Source of the DNA: Haloarchaeobius amylolyticus
GTDB taxonomy: Archaea > Halobacteriota > Halobacteria > Halobacteriales > Natrialbaceae
Assembly: GCF_026616195.1 (NCBI RefSeq)
Contig: NZ_JANHDH010000001.1
Location: 2,232,001 to 2,296,000 of the forward strand
Reading direction: 5' to 3'
Length of the DNA: 64,000 nt
Under the pieces are notes generated by a model. It made no database searches and was not told where the DNA came from. It saw nothing but the letters and a program-made list of their open reading frames with translations. A program made the translations under genes and the position numbers. Positions 50,055 through 53,803 of the stretch are shown here, piece by piece (position 1 is the stretch's first letter; every line of letters starts with the position of its first letter).

Positions 50055-50273
50055 TTACTCGTCTTCGAGGTCGAGCCAGTACTTTCGCGTGTACCCGATG
50101 ACCGCCATCAGGACCACGAAGAAGGCGATGGCGTACGCGAGCATCCGGCCACCGTCCATCGCGAGGACGCCCTTGTTGCCCCCGTAGGTCATGCCGATGT
50201 AGATCATGATCCCGATGATGGTCGCGACGGCCCCGGAGGAGACCACGACCTCTTTGAGTGTCTCCGAATCCAT
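50055..50273 (-). CDS. Two-helix small membrane protein (DUF7472 type)
   Basis: A 72-residue protein, MDSETLKEVVVSSGAVATI then IIGIMIYIGMTYGGNKG and MLAYAIAFFVVLMAVIGY, predicted with two helices and an acidic tail KYWLDLEDE. Start at 50273 (not at 50306) because the upstream extension is basic. It is 21 nt downstream of priL's stop (convergent), and 47 nt beyond the end of the P19-like gene on the same strand, so may belong to that cluster. Function unknown. Confidence 0.7.
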   Translation of the reverse strand: MDSETLKEVVVSSGAVATIIGIMIYIGMTYGGNKGVLAMDGGRMLAYAIAFFVVLMAVIGYTRKYWLDLEDE

Positions 50274-50319
50274 GTCGTTGGCACGCGCTTCCCGCGGCCC
50301 GGACAAAAGCGTGTCGTAG

Positions 50320-51372
50320 TTACGCTACCGTGAACGTCGTCTCGGCCATCTCGACGAAGGCCGTCTCGTAGCCCTCGTGTCTGGCGGCCTGCGGCGGGAT
50401 GGTGGGGGTGAGCGTCACCTCGTCGCCGGACTCGATGGACTCGACCGCCGCACCGTAGTGGTGGTGCAGTTCGGGGTCGAACGTCGGGGTCAGGTCGCCG
50501 TCGAAGACGGTCTCGCCGTCGCGAGCCACCGTCGCGCGCAGTGCCATCGAGGGGAGCACCATCCGGTTGTACGGCGACCGCGCCGACACCGCGAGGTACG
50601 TGCCGTCGCCGAACCGGTCGGCGTCGACGGCCTGCGTCGCGAGCACCGCGTCGCCCGATTTCGGGGCGCCGAGGGCGCGACCGGGGAGGTCGGCCTGTGC
50701 GGGCGCGACGCCGAGGGGCATCTTCGTTTCCATCGGTGGGACGGCCTCGAGCGCGCCGGCGCGGTCCTGGGTGTTCTCGTACATGATCTGCTCTTTCTCA
50801 CCCTCGCTGTAGCTGAGGTCGAGCGTCGCGGTGGTCGACTCCGCGAACCTCCCCTCGAACGCGCCGGTCGTCCGGACGCCCGAGAGGCCGCCGACGGACA
50901 CCTCGACCTGGTAGGTGGCGGTGCCCTCCAGCGGGAAGTTCGCGCCGTAGTGAAAGCCCATGGGCTGGGAGAGCATCGCGTAGATGGTCTCCTCGGTGAC
51001 GAGGTCGCCGTCTTTCGTCACCTCGAGGCTCACGCCGGCGTCGGGGAGGACGATTCCCGTCTCGGGGTCCCAGACCGCGACCATCAGGTGGACCGCGTCG
51101 TCGGGTTCGATGTCGACCAGCTCGGCCTCGGTGCCCGACACCGTCCAGAACCGATGGGGGTAGCTGTACATCAGCCCGAGTTTGTAGTCGCCACTCGTCG
51201 TCATCGACTCCATCTGCATCCCCTCGACGTGGGTGGGATAGTAGACCGCGTCCGGACGGTCGGAGAGGACCGGCGGGATGCCCGCCGTCTGTGTCTCCAG
51301 CAGCCCGGCACAGCCGGCGAGCCCTGTCGCGGCCGCGCCGGCACCGGCCGCGAGGAACGTGCGTCGTCTCAT
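50320..51372 (-). CDS. P19-like metal-binding lipoprotein (iron transporter-associated)
   Basis: A 350-residue lipoprotein. Tat-like start MRRRTFLAAGAGAAATGLAG with lipobox LAGC (Cys21). The mature part (VYYPTHVEGMQMESM, DYKLGLMYSYPHRFW, VSVWD-like DDAVHLMVAVWDPETG) resembles the P19/Tp34 family of periplasmic metal-binding proteins, and MGFHYG (138-143) together with MGFHYG's His141 is the likely metal ligand; Met-rich METKM (214-218) and HHH (303-305) add further potential ligands. P19 in bacteria works with FTR1-type iron permeases. Adjacent DyP-like lipoprotein suggests iron or copper handling. Second gene of the cluster. Confidence 0.8.
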   Translation of the reverse strand: MRRRTFLAAGAGAAATGLAGCAGLLETQTAGIPPVLSDRPDAVYYPTHVEGMQMESMTTSGDYKLGLMYSYPHRFWTVSGTEAELVDIEPDDAVHLMVAVWDPETGIVLPDAGVSLEVTKDGDLVTEETIYAMLSQPMGFHYGANFPLEGTATYQVEVSVGGLSGVRTTGAFEGRFAESTTATLDLSYSEGEKEQIMYENTQDRAGALEAVPPMETKMPLGVAPAQADLPGRALGAPKSGDAVLATQAVDADRFGDGTYLAVSARSPYNRMVLPSMALRATVARDGETVFDGDLTPTFDPELHHHYGAAVESIESGDEVTLTPTIPPQAARHEGYETAFVEMAETTFTVA

Positions 51373-51449
51373 GCTCGTGACTCGGCACTTCGGAGAAAAG
51401 CGGCTTCTGGTTCTTCCATCGAAACAGGGTGCTTCGCTGGTCGCACGCG

Positions 51450-52760
51450 CTACTGCGGGTTCGGGCCCGGCAGCGCGCGGTGTGCCCGCGGCGGGAGCAG
51501 GAAGTTCCCGCGGCGCTTGACGAACGTGTACTCGAGGATGCCGTTGTTGACGCGCTGGCGGATGGTCGGGTGCTTGGTCTGCTCGGTCCCGTTCATCGCC
51601 TCGCGGGTCGTCTCGAAGTCCTCGATGCGACGCTGGACGGCGAGGAAGTGCAGGCCGGCCTCGCCCCTGTCGGTGGAGTCGAAGTCGCGCCGGAGGATGA
51701 GCGGGCTGCCGTCCTCGCGGGCCGCCGCCGTCTTCTGGGTGTGGCCGATCCTCCCATGGGTCCGGGCGTCCTCGTCGATGGACTCGACACAGTCCGCCTC
51801 CTCCACGCCGGAGGAGTCGCCGAGGTTGTCCCCTGCACCCTCGACCTTCCCCTCCTCGGCGTGGGCCGGGCAGAACATCTTCGCGACGTTCTCCTCCCGG
51901 TCGTTCTCGGTGTACCAGTCGTCCAGACGCAGGCGGATGCGCGAGACGTGCTGGGTCGTCCCGCCGGCGAAGGGGCCCTCCTGGATGGTGACGAAGTCCT
52001 CGCTGGCCTGGTTCTTCTTGAAACCGGACTTGAACCCCATGTACAGCGGCGCGTCCTCGTCGATGTCGGCCTCCTCCGGGATGCCGTCCACGTCCTGGTT
52101 CTTCGCGGGGAGTCCATCGCCCACGAAGCCGGTTCGGCGGCCGGGGAACTCGCTCGGCAGGTCGAACACGTCGCCGAGGTGGGCCTCCATCTCGACGCCG
52201 TTTGCCTTCTCACGGCTGCCCTTCAGGGCCTCTTCGGCCTCGAGCAGGACCGAGCCGTGGTCGCTCGCGAGGTGGACGACGGCGTCGTTGGTGTCGAACT
52301 CGGGTTCCTCGAAGGGGGAGAGGGCCTTCGGCTCGGCCAGCCCGGCGGTCTCGGGCAGGGACTCGTCGAACCGGTCGAAGTACGCCGGGGAGTAGCCGAC
52401 CGTGAACAGCAGGCCCTCGTTCGACCACTCGAAGGCGCGTTCGAGGCTCCGGAAGGCGGTCTCGACGGTCTCGCGCTCGTCGCTGGTCGGCGTCCCGTCG
52501 CCCGCGTAGTCGAGGTAGAGGAGGAGGTGGTGGCGGGCCATGACGTCGTTGCCGTGGTCGTCCGTGGCGAGGAACCGGTTCCAGGTGTGCTGGCCGCTCG
52601 GGAGGCTCGTCGGGTCGTCGCGGCCGGTCGGGATGGAAGCGGCGTCGTCGCCGCCTCGCTCGCGGTCGAGGCAGGCAGCGAGGGCGGCCGTCCCGCCGAT
52701 GGCGACGGCGGATTTGACGAACTCGCGGCGGGGAATTCCGCGGCTGTCGCGTGCTGTCAT
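51450..52760 (-). CDS. DyP-type-peroxidase-like Tat lipoprotein
   Basis: A 436-residue protein with a Tat signal (RREFVKSAV, residues 11-19) and Cys30 in a lipobox-like AALAAC, so folded export is expected, in keeping with a cofactor protein. It has DyP-family parts: GFVGDGLPAK (211-220) matching the GxxDG motif, HVSRIRLRLDDW (271-282), MFCPAHAEE (295-303) and LILRRDFDS (354-362). The proximal His is either His300 or His335 (ARTHGRIGH); the strict arrangement is altered. DyP homologues such as EfeB help extract iron from heme or oxidise Fe(II). Neighbouring genes support a metal-acquisition role. Confidence 0.75.
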   Translation of the reverse strand: MTARDSRGIPRREFVKSAVAIGGTAALAACLDRERGGDDAASIPTGRDDPTSLPSGQHTWNRFLATDDHGNDVMARHHLLLYLDYAGDGTPTSDERETVETAFRSLERAFEWSNEGLLFTVGYSPAYFDRFDESLPETAGLAEPKALSPFEEPEFDTNDAVVHLASDHGSVLLEAEEALKGSREKANGVEMEAHLGDVFDLPSEFPGRRTGFVGDGLPAKNQDVDGIPEEADIDEDAPLYMGFKSGFKKNQASEDFVTIQEGPFAGGTTQHVSRIRLRLDDWYTENDREENVAKMFCPAHAEEGKVEGAGDNLGDSSGVEEADCVESIDEDARTHGRIGHTQKTAAAREDGSPLILRRDFDSTDRGEAGLHFLAVQRRIEDFETTREAMNGTEQTKHPTIRQRVNNGILEYTFVKRRGNFLLPPRAHRALPGPNPQ

Positions 52761-52949
52761 CGACGTTCGCTAGGGACTGGCCCGCAAAAAACGGCGTGGT
52801 GCGCGCGTCGAAAGGGCGAACAGGCGACACGTGGGCGTCGTGGCCGGTCTGGACGCCCGGGAGTCGCGTGGCGGCTGGTCGCACACCCGCTGCCCGCCAC
52901 GCGGTTGCTCGTCAGGACACGACGGGGCTGGCCGCGTCCTCGTATAAAA

Positions 52950-53462
52950 TCACTCGGCCAGCAGGTCGTCCACCAGGCGGGTGAACCGGTCCACGAGGCG
53001 TTCCGGCATCGTCGGCGTCACGTCGGCGAGGAGGTCGCCGGTCCGTTCGGGGTCGGCGAGCACCAGCGTCACGCGGTTGCGCGAGTCGCGTTCCTTCTCG
53101 ACCAGCCCGGCATCACAGAGGTTGTCGAGGTGGTGCTCCAGCGTCGAGCGCGCCACGCCCACCTCCTCGGCGACCGCGGCGGGGCGGGAGGGTCCCTGCT
53201 CGATGAGGGTGGCGAGGACGTCGCGGGTGGTCTCCCGGCGGACCAGCGCGATGGCCGCGCGCTCGAACTCGTCGTAGCCGGGCGGGAAGTAGTGGGTTCG
53301 GCCGAACAGTTCGTCCCGGCGGACCGCCTCCTCGTCGACCAGCGAGCGGACGTGGTACTGGACGTGGCCGGCCGCGAACGGGAGCGACCGGACGAGTTCG
53401 TTGAAGTGGACGCCGGGCTGTGCTGCGATCTCGTGCTCGATGCGGGTGCGTGCGTCGGTCAT
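52950..53462 (-). CDS. Two-domain winged-helix regulator
   Basis: A 170-residue protein with two winged HTH units. The first covers residues about 10-65 (ELVRSLPFAAGHVQYHVRSLV, then RRDELFGRTHYFP), the second residues about 75-150 (RPAAVAEEVGVARSTLEHHL, DNLCDAGLVEKERDS). Together they are the plan of haloarchaeal double-wHTH ArsR-like/DUF7347-type regulators. It overlaps the small membrane protein at 53459 by 4 nt. It probably controls the P19/DyP cluster; the target site is not apparent. Confidence 0.85.
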   Translation of the reverse strand: MTDARTRIEHEIAAQPGVHFNELVRSLPFAAGHVQYHVRSLVDEEAVRRDELFGRTHYFPPGYDEFERAAIALVRRETTRDVLATLIEQGPSRPAAVAEEVGVARSTLEHHLDNLCDAGLVEKERDSRNRVTLVLADPERTGDLLADVTPTMPERLVDRFTRLVDDLLAE

Positions 53463-53803
53463 GTGTCGTCGGTACCGCGGCCCTGCCGGATCTCGCGGGC
53501 GTACCACACCGCGCCGACCACGAGTGCGGTCATCACCACGTCGAGGCCGTGTTCGACGAGGTGGTGGTCGGCGTCGGTGAGCGGCCCCATCATCGCGAGC
53601 CAGGCGACCAGCGACCGCCCCGCGATGGTGGCGAGTGCCAGTGCGACCAGCAGGTACGGCCGCGAGCGCCGCCGGACGTAGGCCGCCAGCCCGAGCCCGA
53701 GCAACAGCGCGGACCCGAGGCCGGCGAGGGTGAGGACACCCAGCAGCAGCGGGCTGACCGTGGTGCTGGCGTGCAGTGGTGCGAGCCCCGGCAGGGGTTC
53801 CAT
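53459..53803 (-). CDS. Three- or four-helix small membrane protein (DUF7471 type)
   Basis: A 114-residue protein, MEPLPGLAPLHASTTVSP, with three or four hydrophobic helices (LLLGVLTLAGLGSALLLGLG, PYLLVALALATIAGRSLV, AWLAMMGPLTD, TALVVGAVWYA). Its stop codon overlaps the wHTH gene's start by 4 nt, so the two are coupled. Membrane-protein/regulator pairs of this sort are common in haloarchaea; the protein might signal to the regulator. Function unknown. Confidence 0.7.
   Translation of the reverse strand: MEPLPGLAPLHASTTVSPLLLGVLTLAGLGSALLLGLGLAAYVRRRSRPYLLVALALATIAGRSLVAWLAMMGPLTDADHHLVEHGLDVVMTALVVGAVWYAREIRQGRGTDDT

Follow-up and report, generated by a model that had tools for sequence, protein, structure and literature searches.

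A P19-like and DyP-like lipoprotein pair widespread in haloarchaea, a probable copper-supply module sharing a promoter element with cuproprotein assembly genes

Within 3.7 kb of the Haloarchaeobius amylolyticus genome a gene for a P19-like lipoprotein lies next to one for a DyP-like lipoprotein, members of two families with roles in bacterial iron uptake (PMC6083913, PMC9174327), and the question raised by this locus is which metal such a pair handles when no FTR1 permease is seen beside it. The window analysed here is a stretch of 64,000 nucleotides, in which five open reading frames, all on the minus strand and each belonging to a Pfam family, were found at 50055–53803, in agreement with a preliminary description made from the DNA letters. 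Together with two copies of a shared promoter element they are:

53459..53803, minus strand: DUF7471 small membrane protein, 114 aa (Pfam PF24283, 5.6e-34; hydropathy)
52950..53462, minus strand: double winged-helix regulator, 170 aa, with an HVO_0163-type N domain and a MarR/ArsR-type wHTH (Pfam PF24266 HTH_HVO_0163_N, 1.3e-32)
52780..52813, minus strand: shared promoter element of DUF7405, TTTCGACGCGCGCACCACGCCGTTTTTTGC..., 53 bp before the start (25.0 bits)
51450..52760, minus strand: DUF7405, DyP-like Tat lipoprotein (DUF7405 3.7e-164; Dyp_perox_C 8e-7)
51391..51424, minus strand: shared promoter element of P19, TTTCGATGGAAGAACCAGAAGCCGCTTTTC..., 52 bp before the start (30.9 bits; exact core match)
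50320..51372, minus strand: P19-like domain followed by DUF7350, Tat lipoprotein (Iron_transport/P19 1e-5; DUF7350 1.9e-58)
50055..50306, minus strand: DUF7472 two-TM protein (Pfam PF24284, 1.2e-13)

The smaller genes largely had the character first ascribed to them. DUF7472, described as a small two-helix protein, has two strong TM segments by hydropathy and is 83 aa long from the listed TTG start or 72 aa from the ATG at 50273, while DUF7471, likewise with two strong TM segments, is coupled to the regulator by a 4-bp overlap (ATGA) of its stop with the start of the HTH gene. The Pfam search also found the second, MarR/ArsR-type wHTH behind the HTH_HVO_0163_N domain of the regulator, as expected of a double-wHTH protein, together with a weak HTH_metalloreg match (2.5e-10) below cut-off. 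Both lipoproteins carry an RR motif and a lipobox Cys (C30 in DUF7405 and C21 in P19-DUF7350) that are conserved in the alignments.

The clustering of these genes is not due to chance, since 261 of 292 Halobacteria have DUF7405 and 254 have DUF7350, Haloferax volcanii having both, and the gene order of the locus is seen again in other genera. The two families occur together in 253 genomes, DUF7405 alone in 8, DUF7350 alone in 1 and neither in 30 (Fisher p 2e-32, ignoring phylogeny), and this conserved pairing bears out the idea of an undescribed haloarchaeal metal-handling unit. Linkage was studied in 59 loci, mostly one per genus and picked by DUF7405 alone, of which 40 have a P19 gene within 5 kb (same strand in 35, immediately downstream in 20) and 19 have none, the chance expectation being roughly 1% for about two copies in a 3.8 Mb genome. 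Synteny, on which the preliminary description had made its reading depend, holds in many genomes but not in all. In one genus most genomes with DUF7405 and no DUF7350 carry weaker-scoring, divergent DUF7405 copies, and the window's own genome, too, has on another contig (C3; L136:6981-8456) an additional DUF7405 of greater divergence (about 360 bits), which lacks a P19 gene in its vicinity. A Bacteroidetes match (L009), of 36% over 60 aa, was too weak to be used.

The FTR1 permease missing from the locus is missing elsewhere too. FTR1/EfeU (PF03239) was found in 0 of 292 Halobacteria, the own genome included, with four control bacteria positive, and the EfeO M75 protein (PF09375) likewise in 0 of 292, again with positive controls, which rules out an FTR1 or EfeO partner encoded elsewhere in the genome or the class.

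To identify the P19-like protein, sequence and structure searches were combined. Its N-terminal domain matches PF10634 (Iron_transport) with 26.2 bits, above the cut-off of 21, and although a PDB search with the single sequence gave no match, the family profile matched FtrA (5e-7) and also FetP and Tp34. The predicted structure (pLDDT 84.8, pTM 0.84) gave Foldseek matches of probability 1.00 in which the top 19, and 28 of the top 29, are P19, FetP, FtrA, Tp34 or HftA, the sole exception, at rank 20, being a designed protein cage. The P19 fold of this Tat lipoprotein, first read from motifs, is hence confirmed by sequence comparison and structure prediction alike. As the DUF7350 model (PF24041) matches the N-terminal P19 domain too, above its own cut-off, and the two halves of the protein align with each other by hhalign (E 8.5e-10), DUF7350 is, judged by these alignments, a second P19-related domain.

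When analysing the conserved residues of the P19 domain a candidate His/Met site appeared, formed by H95, M97, M133, M138 and H141 and also H73. Of these, H95, M133 and H141 are invariant in 45 sequences and correspond in the PDB-profile alignment to H42, M88 and H95 on the copper side of C. jejuni P19, residues taken to be copper ligands; the assignment to the haloarchaeal protein is made from the alignment and not from a metal-bound structure. The acidic iron site of C. jejuni P19 consists of Glu44, Asp46 and Asp92 (PMC9174327), and here Glu44 and Asp92 are replaced by M97 and M138, both invariant in the 45 sequences, while Asp46 corresponds to position 99, which is non-acidic and mostly S, T or V. 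These residues suggest copper, and not iron, as the metal of P19-DUF7350. The replaced acids, two of them by invariant Met, together with the absence of FTR1 and EfeO from all 292 genomes, count against an iron acquisition without FTR1, in which P19 and DUF7405, in the manner of P19/FetP and EfeB, would oxidise iron or extract it for another permease (ZIP-like or polytopic). Such an explanation has in its favour the bacterial roles of both families cited above, the fact that copper-binding P19 proteins still work in bacterial iron uptake, the NCBI name 'iron transporter' given to the P19 protein and, in plasmid-borne versions of the locus, multicopper oxidase and ZIP-like neighbours that recall Fet3-type systems.

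The DyP-like protein (publicly labelled 'Dyp-type peroxidase') matches Dyp_perox_C (PF20628) with 29.4 bits, above the cut-off of 20, and scores below the cut-off of TIGR01413; a PDB search with the single sequence gave no match. Over 325 columns it aligns colinearly, at 24% identity, with EfeB of E. coli, the hhalign score itself being weak, and in this alignment DSHIR of EfeB corresponds to GH340TQK and LMLRRG to LILR357R358, so placed that the proximal His (H340) and the distal Arg (R357/R358) are kept in 52 of 52 sequences. The GxxDG motif (GFKDG in EfeB) is GFKSG in DUF7405, the Asp being replaced by S245, and among the 52 sequences this position is S in 28, A in 22, T in 1 and V in 1, and never D. 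The AlphaFold model, whose alignment comprised the window and related-locus sequences, is poor (pLDDT 38.8), and given this and E values all >0.001 its Foldseek matches, the top 49 of which are described as DyP or DyP-like (probability 0.85-1.00), were counted as support only. The above-cut-off domain match, the colinearity with EfeB and the RR motif with lipobox Cys uphold the reading as a DyP-like Tat lipoprotein, and DyP ancestry is supported. Of the heme pocket looked for in this protein, the proximal His and distal Arg are retained but the GxxDG Asp is gone; because His and Arg are invariant, the Asp is never found and the model is poor, heme binding is plausible and canonical peroxidase chemistry doubtful.

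Alignment of the upstream regions of close relatives revealed a conserved block in front of both the DUF7405 and the P19 genes. A 34-bp model built from it (consensus.TTCGAcg..cG.ACCAGAAccc.tTTT) was found upstream of DUF7405 and P19 genes of many genera, in 69 of the 126 regions compared, against 0.16% of shuffles, and in most cases starts 51-54 bp (about 52) before the start codon, its T-run lying where the haloarchaeal TATA box is expected. In the window the P19 copy matches the core exactly and the DUF7405 copy is degenerate (ACCACGC). Exact matches to the core, TTCGA-N7-ACCAGAA, were present in 197 of the 292 genomes, with roughly one to two sites in each, while a reversed control gave ~14 matches in total.

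Since the model was trained on DUF7405 and P19 upstream regions, its independent test lies in the other genes that carry the element, which were classified with a coverage rule, signal-peptide similarity to P19 being otherwise misleading. At about -52 the element precedes genes for SCO1/SenC (L077, L014, L160, L100; in one genus beside DUF7405), NosL (L077, L108, L174), the heme A synthase CtaA/COX15 (L101), a CopC-CopD fusion (L163), DsbD_2 (L085), plastocyanin (L112) and a polytopic membrane family (L092, L111, L142, L143), and it is also found 68 bp before one DUF7471 gene. In the own genome it stands before SCO1 (G000:C2:1045900, L194; one mismatch, CKTVCP motif in the protein) and before a paralogous P19 gene (L185). 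SCO1, NosL, CtaA and CopC-CopD function in copper delivery or heme-copper oxidase assembly. By annotation the regulon defined by the element is not purely one of copper, as it also precedes genes without a copper link, namely one for a Ferritin_2 protein and those for an uncharacterised AHFP-type Tat protein (12 sequences).

This last protein belongs to no Pfam family, has a predicted mature end beginning HFP (AAAHFP) and was found with the element at L168:855-1466, L216:318-920, L159, L160, L167, L170, L173, L175 and L214. An element copy of its own also precedes a polytopic membrane protein with an AHxGxxHAGTPHW-like start (L083:7329-8429, L101:7091-8272, L236:3247-4455), divergently oriented to DUF7405/P19 and without a Pfam family above cut-off. 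Two back-to-back, opposite elements between divergent genes were seen in several genomes of one genus, g26 (L083:7246-7311; G067:C1:780301-780338), those at L083 serving DUF7405 and a membrane protein. On plasmids of several genera (L205, L221, L237) the paired cores TTCGATGACCCAACCAGAA and TTCGAAAGACAAACCAGAA recur together; as a start codon at the expected spacing is missing, these repeated sites were set aside and are perhaps the ends of mobile elements.

The sharing of the element with copper chaperone and oxidase assembly genes (SCO1, NosL, CtaA and CopC-CopD), together with the replaced acids of the P19 iron site, weakens the case for iron, the metal of the bacterial systems with which the preliminary description compared the locus; iron as the likely metal is not borne out, and we regard iron acquisition through this locus as unlikely. 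The same target genes bear on a respiratory or redox module, in which the element would answer a change of oxygen or electron acceptor and DUF7405 and P19 would protect or mature cuproproteins of the oxidase and of denitrification, with copper in a secondary role. The association with CtaA, cox and NosL fits such a module, as does the strong upregulation under denitrification of SCO and multicopper oxidase-transmembrane-plastocyanin operons in Haloferax mediterranei (PMC11218638), but the published denitrification motif CGAAYATDKTYG is unlike this element (PMC11218638) and P19 is a metal-binding fold, and the explanation appears rather improbable.

The gene neighbourhoods differ between chromosomal and plasmid-borne copies. 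Plasmid-borne versions add genes for a multicopper oxidase, a ZIP-like protein, plastocyanin and a heavy-metal (Cu) P-type ATPase, with a CDF transporter nearby, several of these copper neighbours being one recurrent plasmid island (L003, L005, L008, L086, L102) and not independent cases. Some chromosomal versions adjoin cox genes, and most, the window included, have no efflux gene nearby. In L003 (9284-10344) the first P19 gene of the plasmid-type cluster occupies two overlapping frames, which is probably the result of a frameshift. That plasmid-borne copies can have a P-type ATPase, a CDF transporter and a multicopper oxidase close by, and that CopC-CopD is named for resistance, would be in line with copper detoxification, i.e. 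a sequestering and oxidising surface system induced by excess copper and working with P-type ATPase and multicopper oxidase. Detoxification is nevertheless very unlikely, the main co-regulated genes (SCO1, NosL and CtaA) being assembly factors, the module near-universal in the class and not accessory, and efflux genes missing near most chromosomal copies.

The two small membrane proteins had been proposed as possible substitutes for FTR1, a role that is not likely for either of them. DUF7472 was rejected as permease since it is local, its presence at this place (7 of 69 loci) being confined to the window's genus and two near relatives, and DUF7471 since it is the partner of the regulator gene, the two being same-strand neighbours in 25 cases (30 HTH and 29 DUF7471 matches). 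The wHTH gene lies within 5 kb of DUF7405 in 21 of 59 loci, and the wHTH-DUF7471 pair is a candidate regulator. As candidate permease we propose instead a polytopic membrane protein with eight to nine TM segments that in many genomes is encoded next to P19 or DUF7405, and whose family also adjoins the paralogous P19 of the window's genome. PDB, Pfam and NCBIfam searches gave no family for it, the search for relatives covered the taxonomic family, and it may resemble 'fenitrothion hydrolase' (FedA-like). The paralogous locus (L121:4962-8552; G000:C1, about 615-618.5 kb) encodes a polytopic membrane protein, P19-DUF7350 with an element, and a DUF7282 protein whose predicted mature end after the signal peptide begins HGNH.

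Taken as a whole, the core of the locus is probably a so far undescribed module for extracytoplasmic copper supply, widespread among haloarchaea and regulated together with cytochrome oxidase and cuproprotein assembly genes. P19-DUF7350 and DUF7405 would be exported by the Tat pathway and lipid-anchored on the cell surface, where P19-DUF7350, going by its conserved ligands, would bind copper in the His/Met site, and where DUF7405, as a heme protein of DyP descent that lacks the canonical distal Asp, may most likely adjust or protect the redox state of the copper, a tentative step. Copper would then pass to the assembly factors SCO1 and NosL and to membrane carriers, namely CopC-CopD, the recurrent polytopic protein and, in some plasmid versions, the ZIP-like protein, with cytochrome oxidase, halocyanins and other cuproproteins as putative final users. 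Joint expression would be driven by the common TTCGA-N7-ACCAGAA element, which stands immediately before the TATA position, with the adjacent wHTH-DUF7471 pair as putative regulator. The comparisons above establish the protein families, the P19 fold, the co-occurrence and synteny of the genes, and the motif with the genes it precedes; the identity of the metal, heme binding, the redox role, the regulator and the direction of the response are parts of the model that we infer. A bolder version, to which we give somewhat less than even credence, is that nearly all haloarchaea acquire copper by a P19 rebuilt for this metal (Met for acids, a second domain fused) and a DyP-derived heme lipoprotein, as the core of an unrecognised TTCGA-N7-ACCAGAA copper regulon feeding cytochrome oxidase and halocyanins.

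Copper uptake and delivery in haloarchaea are little known, despite the use of the copper protein halocyanin, which there replaces cytochrome c (PMC8305020). A genome survey of Haloferax mediterranei records a single protein with a CopD domain, found no CopC, and leaves P19 and DyP proteins unmentioned (PMC9240420). In the open-licence literature searched, neither the names DUF7405, DUF7350, DUF7471 and DUF7472 nor a paper joining the P19 and DyP pair, assigning copper to it or reporting the element was found; the domain names 'iron transporter' and 'Dyp-type peroxidase' are already public. If the copper-supply proposal is true, the near-universal pair with these labels serves copper, two folds of bacterial iron uptake have been turned to the use of a different metal, and more copper genes can be listed from hundreds of genomes by means of a simple sequence signature.

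When comparing the locus with known systems, its proteins are members of Pfam DUF7405, DUF7350, DUF7471, DUF7472 and HTH_HVO_0163_N, for which Pfam gives no function. With EfeUOB (FTR1 permease EfeU, EfeO and the DyP deferrochelatase EfeB) it has in common that a DyP-like protein of heme type, exported by Tat, is encoded in a metal locus, whereas EfeU/FTR1 and EfeO are absent, the DyP-like protein is lipid-anchored, has lost the GxxDG Asp and has a P19 protein as partner, and the co-regulated genes are of copper type. The P19/FTR1, FetMP and FtrABCD systems have in common with it the P19 fold, the copper-side His/Met residues and the extracytoplasmic location, but in the haloarchaeal protein the iron-site acids are replaced and DUF7350 is fused, with no FTR1 and with a DyP-like partner. 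CopC-CopD/YcnJ import and SCO1/NosL delivery are linked to the locus by the same promoter element on genes of these families and by a presumed extracytoplasmic supply of cuproenzymes, although neither P19-DUF7350 nor DUF7405 is homologous to these chaperones.
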